Below are positions 2,320 through 35,099 of a stretch of 36,505 nt of DNA, in pieces (position 1 is the first letter of the stretch; every line of letters starts with the position of its first letter). The notes under the pieces are model-generated. The model was not told the origin of the DNA. It saw only the letters and a program-made list of their open reading frames with translations, and did no database searches. Made by a program: the position numbers and the translations under genes. The stretch is taken from NCBI GenBank assembly GCA_016208915.1, contig JACQXE010000057.1, forward strand, positions 1 through 36,505, given 5' to 3'. The stretch is from Nitrospirota bacterium. Lineage in GTDB: Bacteria; Nitrospirota; Thermodesulfovibrionia; Thermodesulfovibrionales; UBA1546.

Positions 2320-4236
2320 TTATTGCTCGGTTTCAGTTGTTGATTCTTGTTCATTTTCATTTGTATTGATATTGCCCCTTGGCCTGAGCGCTTCTCGCTG
2401 ACAACTATAGGCAAGCAAAAATTCACCGCTGAGTTTTTTATCACTCATAAATTCCTCGGTGTCAAACATATTTTTTACTTCATCAATCATTGCTTGTCTT
2501 TTTTGTGACTGCGCTCCTAATCTCGCCTTGTAAGGCGAAAGAGAAAGCTCTAGGGTTCTCCAAGTGCTGCAAGGATGTTCAGCAAACCGCTGCATCAATC
2601 TGGCAGCATTTGTTTGTCGGTCTTCTCTTGCCTTATTCAAAGCCCATTGTTCTAAACTGTCTGCTAATGCTAATAACCTGCCGTACAAGTAATCTCGTGT
2701 TTTACGGCTTTCATCTAATGCCATACTGTAGCCCTCCTTTTCGTTACGTTTTCTAAAAAGCGCACAGGCGATACTGATTGTTTTATTCCATTCCCAACCC
2801 TCCATGCCTACCCGATTACATGCCCGACGAATCGCTGAATCAACAATATCATGCGGAATCTGCTGTCCATCAACAATGCAAGGCAACAGACGTTCAACCG
2901 TTGATTTCTTCAGCTTATCGTCAACCTTACTTCCATATGCCGCTTCAGCAATGTCTCGCAGTGCTGGTGCCCCTACAAATCGCAAGTACTTTCTCTTAGC
3001 TTTCTTATTATTCTTGTCTTCGATAGAACGATAGTCATGAACCCATGCACAGGTTTCGTGCCATTGCTCAACCCTTTTCAAGAAATCTGCTCCAGTTAAC
3101 TCACGATAAAAGGTTATGGCCATACGGCCCGGTGTTGCCGAGTCAAGCCCCATTACCACGATACCACTTGTGTCGCCCAATTCAGCCTTATATCCTGCTA
3201 TTTTTTTATTGAACTTGAGTGCGATATTTTGAGCGGTTGAAACAACATCTGAATCATCACTCACCAATTCTTCTTCTTCTCCTAGGACTGACAATGGGTC
3301 GGCAAGCGGGTCAGGAATTTCCTTGCCCGATGTAGCCCATGCGACAATAGCCTGATATCCACTTCGATATCCTTGCCTATTTATAAGCCAGCGTAACGCA
3401 CTGTGTGCCTTTTGAGTAATCTCAAAACCAACACCGCACGCTTGCTGTGCATCAGTAAATCTCCCGCGAAACGTAAATCCTGATGAGTCATTTGAAGAAA
3501 TCAATTTTGCTTTGTCGCCATCATTCCGCAGCTTAGCCGGATGTTGCTCTGCACCCAAAAGTTCTTTGCCTGTAACATAACAAAGAGATTTCCCCTGTTT
3601 AATGTTTGAGTAGTAGTTTATCCAGCTATCCCAAAGCGTTTTGTCTTCCCACCCTTTTGAACAGTTGTCATCGGGAGTCTCGACTTCCCAACGGATAAAA
3701 GCTTCGGACTGATCCTTAAGGACTTTAAAAACATCTGGGACATCCTTGCTTTTCTTATCAGGCTTTTCGATTAATTTTCCATCGTCACCTATAATTAAAA
3801 CCTTATTATCAATTAAATCTTTAATCACATGTCCTTTTTTTATGTACTCAAATACTGCAAGTGCTTTAGGATGCTGTTGCGACATGCACCATTTTCCAAG
3901 CTCTGATTCATACGTCGCAAAATATGAATCTTTGCTTACGCCATATTTAGCATAATCTTTTGCCACATACTGCAACTTATCGCACAAAGGATGTGGGGCT
4001 TCACCGCTCGTCCGACCACCAGAACTCTCAGTGCATGGAATAATCGTTCTTGCATCGTCTTTTGGAACAACTCTGGCTCTCTTAAAATTCCCTCGATGAT
4101 CAATAACAATTTCAATTTGGGCCTTGTTCGTTGTGTGACAAATTGGAAGAAGCGGCACCTCTTTTCCAGAGGAACCCATGCCAATCATTGACTGGCAATT
4201 CTCATAGGTCTCATAAAGTTTGTGTATCCAGCTCAT
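2320..4236 (-). CDS. cas8c: Cas8c (Csd1), type I-C large subunit
   Basis: This 638-residue protein matches the type I-C large subunit, which recognises the PAM and recruits Cas3. Supporting segments are the N-terminus MSWIHKLYETYENC, ..LCYVTGKE.., ..FTFRGRF.. and ..ALRWLINRQGYRSGYQAIVAWA... These resemble Csd1 proteins, where a tGkeq..HpaKlrn segment is usual (here ELLGAEQHPAKLRNDGDKAK). The C-terminal part should also supply the internally initiated small subunit (Cas11c) described in other I-C systems. I did not pin down its start here. It overlaps cas5d by 4 bp (ATGA). Confidence 0.93.
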   Translation of the reverse strand: MSWIHKLYETYENCQSMIGMGSSGKEVPLLPICHTTNKAQIEIVIDHRGNFKRARVVPKDDARTIIPCTESSGGRTSGEAPHPLCDKLQYVAKDYAKYGVSKDSYFATYESELGKWCMSQQHPKALAVFEYIKKGHVIKDLIDNKVLIIGDDGKLIEKPDKKSKDVPDVFKVLKDQSEAFIRWEVETPDDNCSKGWEDKTLWDSWINYYSNIKQGKSLCYVTGKELLGAEQHPAKLRNDGDKAKLISSNDSSGFTFRGRFTDAQQACGVGFEITQKAHSALRWLINRQGYRSGYQAIVAWATSGKEIPDPLADPLSVLGEEEELVSDDSDVVSTAQNIALKFNKKIAGYKAELGDTSGIVVMGLDSATPGRMAITFYRELTGADFLKRVEQWHETCAWVHDYRSIEDKNNKKAKRKYLRFVGAPALRDIAEAAYGSKVDDKLKKSTVERLLPCIVDGQQIPHDIVDSAIRRACNRVGMEGWEWNKTISIACALFRKRNEKEGYSMALDESRKTRDYLYGRLLALADSLEQWALNKAREDRQTNAARLMQRFAEHPCSTWRTLELSLSPYKARLGAQSQKRQAMIDEVKNMFDTEEFMSDKKLSGEFLLAYSCQREALRPRGNINTNENEQESTTETEQ

Positions 4237-8840: not shown

Positions 8841-9528
8841 AGACCTTCACTCCTTTTGGCAAAGAGAAATCAAATAGTTCATCTTTAACGCCTGTATTTA
8901 TCTTTACGTCTTTAAGCCTGACCTCTACCCTGTTGGAATGTGAATCATTTATAACAAAGGATTTTATCGGAAAATCAGACTCTGATGTCTCAATCTCTAT
9001 TGAAACAATGTTGCCCATCGGCTTTTTCGGCACAAGGTTCAGCCTGTTTTTTTTACTGGTCACATGAAATTCCTCCTGTATATTCCCAAAACCGCTGAGC
9101 ATAGCTACCGGAGCCTGACCATAGGTGTCTCTGCTGAAAACCCCTCTGAATGCCTGTTTGTCAGTCTTGTTGTAGATGATTATTTGTTCGTTGTTTATTG
9201 TAACCTCCTGATGCTTATCGCCTGTATATTCCCATTTCATCTTTGACGGTCGTCTTATGAACAGAGATCCCTTATATGTGTCAGTACGTTTCAAATCTTT
9301 TATATAACTCTTCTGGACAAAGTTTCCCTTTATATCCTCTATTTTTTTATACGCCTCCTGAATCCTTTCTATCTCATCACCAGCAAAGGCAGTGAATAGT
9401 GAATAGTGAATAGTGAACAGAAAAAAAACAGTGAACAGTGAACAGTGAACAGTGAACAGTCTTCTGATTTTTGCGGATTGTTTGACTGACGACTGACGAC
9501 TGACGACTAACGACTGTCTTTTAATCAC
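8824..9528 (-). CDS. lolA: LolA-like outer-membrane lipoprotein carrier
   Basis: LolA ferries lipoproteins across the periplasm from LolCDE to LolB. After a signal peptide ending near FAG the mature part has the family pattern: GNFVQKSYIKDLKRTDTYKG, a GSLFIRRPSKMKWEY strand pair, and an internal YGQAPVAMLSGFG region. The mature length (about 185 residues) is usual. The start is GTG with AGGAGG 5 nt upstream, overlapping the ftsK stop (GTGA). The first ~50 codons are unusual: they are built from heptanucleotide repeats, giving a signal sequence with a 7-residue period (LFTVHCS LFTV...). Addition or loss of one unit would shift the frame. Confidence 0.8.
   Translation of the reverse strand: MIKRQSLVVSRQSSVKQSAKIRRLFTVHCSLFTVFFLFTIHYSLFTAFAGDEIERIQEAYKKIEDIKGNFVQKSYIKDLKRTDTYKGSLFIRRPSKMKWEYTGDKHQEVTINNEQIIIYNKTDKQAFRGVFSRDTYGQAPVAMLSGFGNIQEEFHVTSKKNRLNLVPKKPMGNIVSIEIETSESDFPIKSFVINDSHSNRVEVRLKDVKINTGVKDELFDFSLPKGVKVYEHNP
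9391..9457. repeat. Heptanucleotide arrays AGTGAAT/AGTGAAC in the lolA signal-peptide region
   Basis: Three AGTGAAT units and one AGTGAAC (9391-9418) are followed, after an A-rich spacer, by four AGTGAAC units (9430-9457). On the coding minus strand they read as GTTCACT repeats. Three units make 21 nt, hence a 7-residue protein period in the hydrophobic core of the signal peptide. The same unit recurs at 34445-34521. Confidence 0.95.
9484..9516. repeat. Heptanucleotide array GACTGAC at the 5' end of lolA
   Basis: Three GACTGAC units, a GACTAAC variant and a partial unit run without a break. The array lies about 12 nt inside the lolA coding start and encodes the SLVVSRQSSV segment. The unit differs from the AGTGAAC arrays only 27 bp away, so two heptamer types have accumulated in one N-terminal region. 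Confidence 0.93.
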
Positions 9529-21201: not shown

Positions 21202-21663
21202 TCAGATATCAAATATAACATCTGCTTCCCATGCGTCATCTTTCTTTTCTATCTTCAGTCTATGATATGTTGCGGCCTTAATCAATAACTTTCTTTCATG
21301 CCTTTCAGGATCAAACTCCTCTCCTTTTAAAAAAGCTTTAAGCGTATATGCCCCCCCACCCATCCCTCCCCCTCGAGGGGGGAGGGTAAGGGAAGGGGTG
21401 ATTTCAGTTATCACAATCCTCCTCCCAATAAATCCATAAGCATCAAACTGGAATATCAATTCATTTAAATAACTAACTAACAATCCTTCTATGGAATAAC
21501 TCTCAACACTTATCTCTATAGACTGCTTTTCGTTAACATCTTTAAGGTCTGTGCTAAGGCTGTACATGCCAAGGGCTGCATTTAGAAAAACCTGCTCAAT
21601 GCTGTTGCCGTAGGCCTTAATGCCGATATCGCCTGATATGTCTATGATTTCGAAAGTTTTCAC
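21202..21663 (-). CDS. Archease, RtcB activator
   Basis: Archease promotes multiple turnover of RtcB by assisting guanylylation. The 153-residue protein keeps the metal-binding acidic residue of the N-terminal strand (SGDIGIKAYG, D12), the internal NELIFQFDAYGF and EEFDPERHERK segments, and the C-terminal D152 (VIFDI). Residues about 89-104 (TPSLTLPPRGGGMGGG) have no counterpart in ordinary archease. They are encoded by a G/C-rich hairpin repeat, so the loop has grown by an in-frame insertion. It precedes rtcB in the same operon. Confidence 0.88.
   Translation of the reverse strand: MKTFEIIDISGDIGIKAYGNSIEQVFLNAALGMYSLSTDLKDVNEKQSIEISVESYSIEGLLVSYLNELIFQFDAYGFIGRRIVITEITPSLTLPPRGGGMGGGAYTLKAFLKGEEFDPERHERKLLIKAATYHRLKIEKKDDAWEADVIFDI
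21351..21402. repeat. G/C-rich hairpin inserted in frame in archease
   Basis: CCCTCCCCC and GGGGGGAGGG surround TCGA at 21364-21386, with further CACCC/GGGTG-type symmetry outside. The segment is translated as a Gly/Pro-rich loop. It is the same class as the insert in the RM gene. Confidence 0.85.
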
Positions 21664-22734: not shown

Positions 22735-23571
<837 letters not shown>

Positions 23572-23665
23572 GTTAAAATTCTTTTGAAGAAGTTAATAAA
23601 TGAAATCAGATTCCCCGTGCCTTGAGACTTTTCAAGCCAGAGCCTCATAGTCACATCCTGTGTCT

Positions 23666-24448
23666 TTAATACAAGAAACATATCAATTTATAAGGGTCTT
23701 TATTATCAAAATAATATGGGGTAAAATTGTGACAAAAGTTGAGTAAATTATGAAAAGCCATTTGAGGGTAAAAAATAAAGAAAAGAACGAAGACTATACC
23801 AGCCAAGTACCATCCTACAGTAACTTTGTTGAATCCCCAGTAAAAAAAAGTCGTTAAAGCAGTAAAAATGTATCCTACTGATGTTATAAATACAAATCTT
23901 AGTTGCAGCTTCACAATAAGTTGAAATTTAGAATGTGAATAGTTGAAAATAGAAAAAACTATCTGATTTTTTGCGTATCGTGCCATGAAGTGGGCTATTA
24001 AATAAACAGTGCTTGCAGCAATACCCATAACAAAAGATAAAATCAAAAAAGCAATATAGAATTGATATGACAATTCGGGGAGAGGATTCCCGATAAGAAA
24101 ATAAGGCGTAAAAAAAAGACATATAGCTACAACCAAAAAAATGGTATAGCTTAAAGCTCCTTTATGGATATTATTGATTTCTTCCTGATAATTAAATGAA
24201 TTGTTCGGCTTCATCAACTCTGAAAATATATTCTCTTTTCTATTGAGAGTACTATAACTATATAGTATAGCCCATGCAATATACCCAGTAGTAATCCATT
24301 GGAATAAAGCCCCTAATGCTTTTTTTATAGTCAAAAATTCTTCGGTACCTATAAATAGGATTGAAGCTGGCATTACAAAGAAAAGTATTCCGAGAATGCA
24401 AGGATAATTTTTCTGTACTACACTGTTAAATTTACCGCTTTTGTTCAT
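23666..24448 (-). CDS. Polytopic membrane protein of unknown function
   Basis: I do not recognise this 260-residue protein. It has about six hydrophobic segments (near residues 17-35, 43-63, 97-117, 128-152, 182-205 and 212-232) and no obvious catalytic motif. The DNA is clearly more AT-rich than the flanking housekeeping genes. The ATG overlaps by 4 bp (ATGA) the original reading frame of the upstream oxidoreductase. That frame is now interrupted by an early stop, so the two genes were formerly coupled. The pair probably entered by transfer. Confidence 0.7.
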   Translation of the reverse strand: MNKSGKFNSVVQKNYPCILGILFFVMPASILFIGTEEFLTIKKALGALFQWITTGYIAWAILYSYSTLNRKENIFSELMKPNNSFNYQEEINNIHKGALSYTIFLVVAICLFFTPYFLIGNPLPELSYQFYIAFLILSFVMGIAASTVYLIAHFMARYAKNQIVFSIFNYSHSKFQLIVKLQLRFVFITSVGYIFTALTTFFYWGFNKVTVGWYLAGIVFVLFFIFYPQMAFHNLLNFCHNFTPYYFDNKDPYKLICFLY

Positions 24449-24539
24449 GTCTTTGAACTTACTACTTTATAGTTTGCAAGAAATGTTCCAAAAGGATAAA
24501 TGAGCTTTCTTGATAATGACGGATTATAAAATTTCAGCC

Positions 24540-24575
24540 ATAACCCTCTCGGGTCTTATAACCCTCTCGGGTCTT
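24540..24575. repeat. Perfect 18-bp tandem duplication at the oxidoreductase 3' end
   Basis: Two identical copies of ATAACCCTCTCGGGTCTT lie head to tail (24540-24557 and 24558-24575). The junction creates the TAA stop of the oxidoreductase on the minus strand. With one copy removed, the reading frame continues through TTA TGG to a TGA inside the ATGA overlap with the next gene. Confidence 0.97.
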
Positions 24576-25533
24576 TACTCTTTCTTGTTCTTTCCATTAA
24601 ATAATCATATATAGTATTACCAAATAATTCGTAAAATGCCCTGTTAGATAAAGAAGTTTTCATTTGATGATAAAACTTACTTCTCCATAGCGCATTATAG
24701 TCTACATTTTCTATTATGCTTTTAGCGGCTAAATAACCTGATGTAATAGCATATCTAATACCGAAGCCAAAAAGAAAATCTTGAAAACCAGCAGCCTCAC
24801 CAGCATATATTTTTTTCTCTCTAATTGCTGATTTTGATAAAAAAAAACCCCCATAGCCAGCAAATTTCTTAGCATTTATTATGTCAAGCTCACTTATTTG
24901 TTTAAACTTCTCTATTGCTTTTTCGAGATATTTACCTCCCAACTTAAACTGCTCAAAAAGAACCGTCGCAAGTGTAGCTTTTTTGTCAGAAACCAAAAGA
25001 TAGGCATAACCTTTAGGGGAAATGTCATTATCAAGAATAACCATAGCAATATCTTTTAAATTGGTAACAAAGGTTATGCCAAATGCCATCATATTAATCC
25101 TTTTAGGACCAGTCGCTATAATATCAACATCTGCATAATCTAAAGATGTATTAAATATAATGCTTACTCCTAACTTTATTGCTTGTGCTTTTAGCGAGTA
25201 ATCCAATGTCCCAGCACCTTTTCCTCGCTGGATTAAATAAAACATTGGTTCGGTGGATTCAACATGCGCACTCGAAGACAAACTATAAAAATATCCACTG
25301 TAGAATGGTTTGTGATAGAAATTAACTGCAAGTGACATATTTTTAACTGAAGTCAAAACATCTTCTTTTGAGCTCCAATTTTCTAAACCTTGAAAATCAC
25401 CGTGAAATCTCATTCCAACATCTGGATTTTTTTCATAAATAATCACTTTATAGTCGTTTTGTGCAAGGTTTATTGCTGTAGTAAGACCTGACGGGCCAGC
25501 TCCAAGTATTTTAATTACTTTAGGATCGTTCAT
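24556..25533 (-). CDS. FAD-dependent oxidoreductase (geranylgeranyl-reductase-like), truncated by an 18-bp duplication
   Basis: This 325-residue flavoprotein has the dinucleotide-binding GAGPSG (11-16), an acidic strand end (VIIYEKNPDVG), an IIATGPKR segment, and the C-terminal FAD contact KIYAGEAAGFQDFLFGFGIR. These fit the geranylgeranyl reductase/lycopene cyclase-like group. The substrate is unknown. The stop at 24556 was created by an 18-bp tandem duplication. Beyond it the same frame continues for 36 codons (DPRGLWLKFYNPSLSRKL, then IYPFGTFLANYKVVSSKT) to a TGA at 24445 that overlaps the next ATG. The active-site core lies before the stop, so activity may remain. The gene is AT-rich. Confidence 0.78.
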   Translation of the reverse strand: MNDPKVIKILGAGPSGLTTAINLAQNDYKVIIYEKNPDVGMRFHGDFQGLENWSSKEDVLTSVKNMSLAVNFYHKPFYSGYFYSLSSSAHVESTEPMFYLIQRGKGAGTLDYSLKAQAIKLGVSIIFNTSLDYADVDIIATGPKRINMMAFGITFVTNLKDIAMVILDNDISPKGYAYLLVSDKKATLATVLFEQFKLGGKYLEKAIEKFKQISELDIINAKKFAGYGGFFLSKSAIREKKIYAGEAAGFQDFLFGFGIRYAITSGYLAAKSIIENVDYNALWRSKFYHQMKTSLSNRAFYELFGNTIYDYLMERTRKSKDPRGL

Positions 25534-25564: not shown

Positions 25565-26071
25565 TCAAAATCCTGGCGGAAACGGACAATGAATCCTTGC
25601 CCTTTTTATATTATTAGCGCCCTTAAGATAATATGCCGCTATTTTGAAAAAGAAATCTCCGACAGAACCTGATATGGTGCCGTCTCTGTTTTCACCCCAG
25701 TTAAGCGTCTTCTCATTATTGTTGATAGCAACAATGAGATATACCTGTCCTTCCTTCATCTCATTTGTGTCTTCCTCACTAGGGATAGGCAATCCCTTTG
25801 TTACGCCAAACTGCGTATGCGAATGAAAATCTCCGATGATCTGGAGCCGGTCGAATTTCTCGAGTATCGGCTCTATCTTCTTATGGTTCTTGTGCTGAAA
25901 GATAACGCCTTTATGTTTCCGTCTCGCCGTCTGGAAGCTGAAGGCATGCTCGATGATGAACCTACCCTCAGGCTTATAGCCGAGGAGAAAACCGAGGCTC
26001 TCCTTCTTATAGACCTCGGCAGAACTTAATAAAAGGTCTATAAAGGCATTCTCTGATAAATAGACTCTCAT
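25565..26071 (-). CDS. JAMM/MPN-domain metalloprotease-like protein
   Basis: The 168-residue protein has the JAMM zinc-site pattern: E24 (ESLGFLLG), H83-x-H85 (DFHSH), then S98 and D101 (SEED). The spacing between the second His and the Ser is 12 residues, versus seven in the canonical motif, so the metal loop is longer. Related proteins cleave isopeptide or thioester-linked sulfur carriers, but no ubiquitin-like or ThiS/MoaD-type partner is adjacent. It overlaps the upstream universal stress gene by 4 bp (ATGA). Confidence 0.78.
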   Translation of the reverse strand: MRVYLSENAFIDLLLSSAEVYKKESLGFLLGYKPEGRFIIEHAFSFQTARRKHKGVIFQHKNHKKIEPILEKFDRLQIIGDFHSHTQFGVTKGLPIPSEEDTNEMKEGQVYLIVAINNNEKTLNWGENRDGTISGSVGDFFFKIAAYYLKGANNIKRARIHCPFPPGF

Positions 26072-34425: not shown

Positions 34426-34444
34426 TTCTTACCTCCTATTTAAT

Positions 34445-34521
34445 AGTGAATAGTTGTTAGTGAATAGTATTTAGTCATAAATAATTTTACACAGTTCACT
34501 GAACACTATACACTGTTCACT
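34445..34521. repeat. Inverted pair of heptanucleotide arrays between tatA and mobA
   Basis: Five units of AGTGAAT type (34445-34479) face four units of GTTCACT type (34494-34521). GTTCACT is the reverse complement of AGTGAAC, so the two arrays can pair as a hairpin. The second array supplies the last codons and the stop of mobA (AVNSV). The same unit forms the lolA arrays. Confidence 0.9.
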
Positions 34522-35099
34522 GCCTTTTTATAGTCTTTCATCGTATTAATATTCACAAACGATCTGCCTTCAGGGTCTACAGCGCTTACTTCCTCTTCCT
34601 TTACATATAAGACCCGTAACTCTGTTAACATATCCCTGATGCTCCCCTGATCTTTCTTGATCCTATCTTCAATGATACCAGTTACATTTTTTGAATAAAT
34701 TCCTATCAAAGGTTGGCTTCTCCCTTCGAATTGAGGGATTACTGCATCCCAATCCCCCTGGCCTGATGCATATTTAGTAATGAGCAAAGATACGATTTCC
34801 GGCCTTATAAAAGGCATATCACAGGCAACTACAAGTATCGAATCATCCTGTGTACTGGTCAGAACTGAGTATATTCCTGTCAGAGGTCCCCTCTGCTCAA
34901 GGAGGTCGCCTATCATCGGCATCCCGCAATAAAAATAACGCTCTGGCGTATTCGTGCTTATTATGACTTTATCAAAAAATCTCAGCAGCAGATTTATATT
35001 CGTCTCTATAATCCTCTTTCCATTTATCTCAATCTGCCCCTTTAATAATGGAATCCTGCGGTTTTCGCCTCCTGCCAATATCGTCCCTGTCATAGTCAT
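34506..35099 (-). CDS. mobA: MobA-like molybdenum cofactor guanylyltransferase
   Basis: This nucleotidyltransferase fold protein (197 residues from the ATG used) would attach GMP to molybdopterin. It has the LAGG N-terminal loop (TGTILAGGENRRIPLLKG), a VVACDMPFI motif and IPQFEGRSQPLIGIY. The classic GGxSxRMGxDK is modified to GGENRRIPLLKG, so a related nucleotide transferase is possible. A TTG at 35144 overlapping ribD is an alternative start but adds residues before the conserved MTGTILAGG. The C-terminus runs into a heptamer array. Confidence 0.78.
   Translation of the reverse strand: MTMTGTILAGGENRRIPLLKGQIEINGKRIIETNINLLLRFFDKVIISTNTPERYFYCGMPMIGDLLEQRGPLTGIYSVLTSTQDDSILVVACDMPFIRPEIVSLLITKYASGQGDWDAVIPQFEGRSQPLIGIYSKNVTGIIEDRIKKDQGSIRDMLTELRVLYVKEEEVSAVDPEGRSFVNINTMKDYKKAVNSV

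Follow-up and report, generated by a model that had tools for sequence, protein, structure and literature searches.

A short in-frame tandem duplication truncates a geranylgeranyl reductase-like gene at a probable site of gene replacement in a Nitrospirota bacterium

A gene for an FAD oxidoreductase resembling geranylgeranyl reductases (GGRs), here termed GGRx, was found to be shortened by a perfect 18-bp tandem duplication in a Nitrospirota bacterium (assembly GCA_016208915.1). The gene lies in a stretch of 36,505 nucleotides (contig JACQXE010000057.1, positions 1 to 36,505), the whole of which is referred to as the window. The locus is most likely not a working device: we consider it probable that it holds a recent loss-of-function or impaired allele, within a decaying gene pair that had earlier replaced the resident GGR in place. 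Taken alone, the 18-bp event is ordinary; the locus illustrates clearly how a small in-frame tandem duplication can cut a gene short, and does so at a place that had probably already exchanged a conserved enzyme for a distant relative.

The duplication and the premature stop codon

GGRx is encoded on the minus strand (24556..25533) and was recognized by its open reading frame, a weak match to GG-red-SF (TIGR02032; 49 bits, far under the curated cut-off of 158.8) and the structure modelled for a homologue. Its 325-aa product ends in ...KDPRGL, followed by TAA. This stop (24556..24558) is formed across the junction of two adjacent minus-strand copies of an 18-bp unit (AAGACCCGAGAGGGTTAT), the first of which, 5' in the gene, occupies 24558..24575 and the second 24540..24557. 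The copies are identical, as the preliminary description had it (100% match over 24540-24575, TRF score 72), and they share no further flanking identity, so that the borders of the unit are exact. At the junction the minus-strand frame reads AGT AAA GAC CCG AGA GGG TTA TAA GAC CCG AGA GGG TTA TGG CTG, and since 18 is a multiple of three (six codons), the old frame continues past the TAA for 36 codons (DPRGLWLKFYNPSLSRKLIYPFGTFLANYKVVSSKT) and then reaches a TGA. This former C-terminal tail (24448..24555, minus strand), no longer translated, runs into an ATGA (24445..24448, minus strand) in which the former end of the long frame meets the start of the next gene; reading the frame bore out the earlier claim that a one-copy gene would terminate in this overlap and encode about 356 aa. 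Re-initiation within the tail was considered and rejected: no ATG, GTG or TTG occurs in frame, and the tail is therefore not translatable alone.

Matches to the unit with up to three mismatches numbered two, against 0.01 expected from shuffled windows, and only three perfect tandem duplications with a unit of at least 18 bp were present in the 1.21 Mb searched of the 2.51-Mb genome. A dispersed repeat or mobile element was rejected, since exact matches to the core of the unit occur in the genome at these two places only and weaker matches did not exceed the number given by a reversed control. Each unit folds as a hairpin with a 4-bp stem and a 4-base loop exactly at mid-unit (−3.2 kcal/mol as DNA), an energy equalled by none of 200 shuffles; this hairpin could have aided strand slippage.

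Conservation and predicted structure of the lost tail

Alignments were made with 18 homologues from the order and with 80, spread over many phyla, that were retrieved by scanning the genomes of 84,980 species. The segment duplicated in the window comprises six residues in 76 of these 80 and seven in one, compared to twelve in the window. The other three yielded no aligned residues there, two because they are cut off by contig ends and the third, L208, because of an N-terminal stop in its frame, although its tail is present. In the 78 homologues whose sequence could be read, the six additional codons are missing throughout and the protein runs at least 21 residues into the conserved tail. Among the 77 aligned through the site, tails extend 21–74 residues beyond the stop position of the window, and none of the 80 scanned stops before the tail or carries two copies of the unit. 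L208, from Acidobacteria, had appeared to be a naturally short homologue and was rejected as such on account of its tail; it contains an early in-frame TGA near 3070 and is otherwise full length.

A WLKFYNP-like tail had been anticipated and is present, in the nearest homologue as ELWLKFYNPSLSRRLIYPF; no homologue ends at the DPRGL position. Within the YNPS motif, 71 of the 80 retain Y336 and 67 retain S339. The nearest homologue is the GGRx of genome G012, which was taken as the same gene as L131 (Nitrospirae bacterium CG1_02_44_142). Compared with it, the 24-codon core of the tail shows a pN of 0.15 and a pS of 0.87, and pN/pS is 0.32 for the whole 36-codon tail and 0.30 for the body. Judged from these alignments, the stop is derived and premature, and because the tail keeps protein-level constraint, it is likely young relative to the divergence of the window from G012. 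The pattern is that of a recently inactivated gene: the lesion occurs in the window only, the homologues are intact past it, and the abandoned tail is undecayed, in line with the earlier suggestion of a very recent mutation.

To examine the fold, a model of L131, whose gene is intact, was built from an alignment of 44 rows (mean pLDDT 94.4); its tail helices were predicted with confidence (pLDDT about 95, residues 321–340). The model could be superimposed on the Thermoplasma structure 3oz2 (Z 31.4, 323 residues, 3.0 Å) and on the Sulfolobus GGR 3atq (Z 30.2), with alignments reaching model residue 340–351 and the tail helices falling on the C-termini of these structures. In this model, the segment lost in the window corresponds to two C-terminal helices (322–330 and 334–347).

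Damage in the adjacent membrane-protein gene

The next gene (23666..24448, minus strand) encodes a membrane protein for which neither Pfam nor NCBIfam gave a match, and it has lost its C-terminal part by a frameshift, as seen from its open reading frame and comparison with homologues. The G012 protein has 318 aa; the window copy matches its residues 22–241 at 60% identity and is then out of frame, while the G012 C-terminus (ILPHAIFLIKTFIG) appears immediately in another frame of the window as ILPHIILIIKTLIN. Nucleotide matches end and restart at 722 and 913 in G012 and at only 707 and 722 in the window copy, from which, with two to three homologues for comparison, we infer a frameshifting deletion of about 176 nt relative to G012, with its junction at 23727..23742 (minus strand). 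The long C-terminus is also present in G143 and G046. The G143 gene is itself interrupted by an in-frame TGA right after FIYPQ (L069, about 2164–2166), ahead of the long C-terminus and near the site where the window loses its frame; the codons 3' of this TGA are well conserved.

The ATGA overlap had been read as the ancestral arrangement, which the relatives do not support: in G012 and G143, the two that have the pair, GGRx and the membrane-protein gene are adjacent without overlap. In several other relatives (L005, L006, L010), GGRx is directly followed not by the membrane-protein gene but by another gene, which we presume to encode a SAM-dependent methyltransferase from its resemblance.

In the oxidoreductase, 27 differences were specific to the window and 32 to G012, so that change in the window was not accelerated; for the membrane-protein gene the counts were 25 and 19, respectively. 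These counts give no sign of long free decay, and both lesions are therefore probably recent. Since amino-acid change was not accelerated and the FAD-binding core of the truncated oxidoreductase is intact, some activity of the 325-aa form may remain.

Probable replacement of the resident GGR

The locus is flanked on the left by a JAB-domain gene (25565..26071) and on the right by a TonB-like gene (22735..23571), both on the minus strand and both assigned as conserved by domain match and synteny. Directly 3' of the membrane-protein gene lies the 3' stub of a displaced resident GGR (23562..23660, minus strand), which over 99 nt is 86% identical in DNA to the 3' end of the resident gene in G005. 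A 26-codon ORF in it (23571–23648, minus strand; MRLWLEKSQGTGNLISFINFFKRILT) matches the C-terminus of a protein of ~370 aa found in many relatives, which is a GGR above the TIGR02032 cut-off. In the family genomes inspected, this resident GGR sits between the JAB and TonB genes, and of the 16 family genomes, 10 contain a single match above the cut-off, in every case at this locus. A resident GGR above the cut-off is absent from the window's assembly (G000) and from G012, and both carry GGRx, the membrane-protein gene and then the stub at the locus. In G046, from another family of the same order, the membrane-protein gene is followed by a longer stub, where the contig ends; its congeners G037, G064 and G026 retain the full resident gene. 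Flanks are thus conserved, the resident gene is missing and a scar is left, as in in situ displacement.

The stubs of G012 and G046 differ in length from that of the window. The G012 stub is closest to the gene of its congener G006 (99% DNA identity over 97 nt), and that of the window to G005. Because each stub matches the resident gene of its own lineage, the exchange probably took place more than once. A species-side tree (FastTree on galT, UspA and JAB) placed G012 within genus g2, where the surrounding genomes retain the resident gene (it grouped with G014 at a support of 0.957), and the placement of the window among neighbouring genera was weakly supported. With regard to a possible arrival of GGRx by horizontal transfer, the GGRx of the window, G012 and G143 are about equally distant (68, 64 and 63%; window–G012 67%, window–G143 63%), unlike the flanking genes, which are closer between the window and G012. 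As an alternative, we considered differential loss, in which an ancestor would have carried the two GGR types next to each other. In no genome examined were both types intact at the JAB–TonB locus, and repeated replacement is a simpler reading than such an ancestor followed by many losses. We tentatively suggest, as a possible though still doubtful generalization, that the JAB–TonB slot is a site of repeated exchange in the order, where a cassette of GGRx and the membrane protein independently replaces the resident GGR in several lineages, leaves stubs of varied length and then decays. If the swap recurs, it would prompt one to ask why lineages exchange GGR-type enzymes at one and the same position in the chromosome, and whether the genome of the window now lacks the function.

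Other repeats were seen in the window. Imperfect repeats with a period of seven bases (GACTTCT/CAGTGAA type) occur at 23268–23349, 9390–9516 and 34442–34522; one array lies inside the TonB-like ORF, and similar arrays are present elsewhere in the genome (L084, L113, L123). A small ORF (21202–21663, minus strand), presumably for archease, lies beside an RtcB-like gene and contains an in-frame low-complexity stretch (TPSLTLPPRGGGMGGG) whose DNA is near-palindromic (CCTTACCCTCCCCCCTCGAGGGGGAGGG); this stretch has the appearance of a repeat element that has entered a protein.

Interpretation and comparison with known systems

In the course of events that we favour, the gene pair would have replaced the resident GGR in place, possibly through one-step recombination, and the damage would have followed. 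A replication error, perhaps slippage, would have duplicated 18 bp (six codons) of the GGR-like gene; the unit happens to place a TAA across the junction, so that the protein ends 36 codons early, minus two C-terminal helices. The shortened product was probably unstable or impaired, and its operon partner, the membrane-protein gene, would have been damaged also, by the frameshifting deletion.

A truncated protein that still functions, its shorter C-terminus being neutral or adaptive, would accord with the intact catalytic core, the rate of change and the variable tail lengths of the closest homologues. We nevertheless regard this as improbable, given the retention of the YNPS tyrosine and serine across most homologues, the lack of any homologue stopping ahead of the tail, and the match of the tail helices to solved GGRs. 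Less likely still is the reversible switch proposed in the preliminary description, by which loss or regain of one 18-bp copy would toggle between the 325- and ~356-aa forms and their coupling to the downstream gene. The repeat is perfect and in frame, exact loss of one copy would restore the frame, and tandem duplications in pneumococcal capsule genes offer a precedent (Waite et al., 2001, 2003, as cited in PMC4022640); our search of the literature on short reversible duplications found nothing closer. The idea is undermined, however, because the gene that the switch would uncouple is already damaged, and a switch would act on intact genes. Moreover, only one allele was seen, the unit is confined to a single locus and two copies occur in no homologue, and the reversion expected for insertions of up to nine bases is at most ~10^-5 (PMC4022640).

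The comparison drew on draft assemblies, one genome per species and few homologues of the membrane-protein gene, and no conspecific genome turned up when contigs were scanned using just the protein of the window. An assembly or binning artefact could be suspected from the draft state of the genome (88 contigs), but it is very improbable, as the 36 bp of the repeat are shorter than the usual read length, the next gene carries an independent lesion and gene order in the flanks agrees with that of relatives. The reading we prefer is still a recent allele with lost or impaired function. It retains from the preliminary description the derived duplication and premature stop, abandons the switch and the ancestral overlap, and adds two features that had been missed, the lesion in the membrane-protein gene and the replacement of the resident GGR.

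With the geranylgeranyl reductase family (TIGR02032; 3oz2, 3atq), GGRx shares the fold over almost its full length, as judged from the homologue model, whereas its 49-bit sequence score lies far from the family cut-off. The pneumococcal capsule duplications (type 3 locus, cap8E and tts) arise spontaneously, and phase variation was observed there according to the works cited in PMC4022640 (Waite et al., 2001, 2003). In both systems a perfect short tandem duplication inactivates an ORF and could revert precisely; here, in contrast, a single allele is seen and the stop arises where the two copies meet, with the reading frame preserved. The closest parallel to the history of the locus is in situ displacement, i.e. 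xenologous replacement in a conserved gene string, in which flanks are likewise kept, a distant relative replaces the resident gene and a scar is left. The present case differs from the classic one in that an extra membrane-protein gene accompanies the replacement, more than one lineage is involved and the replacement is itself now damaged.
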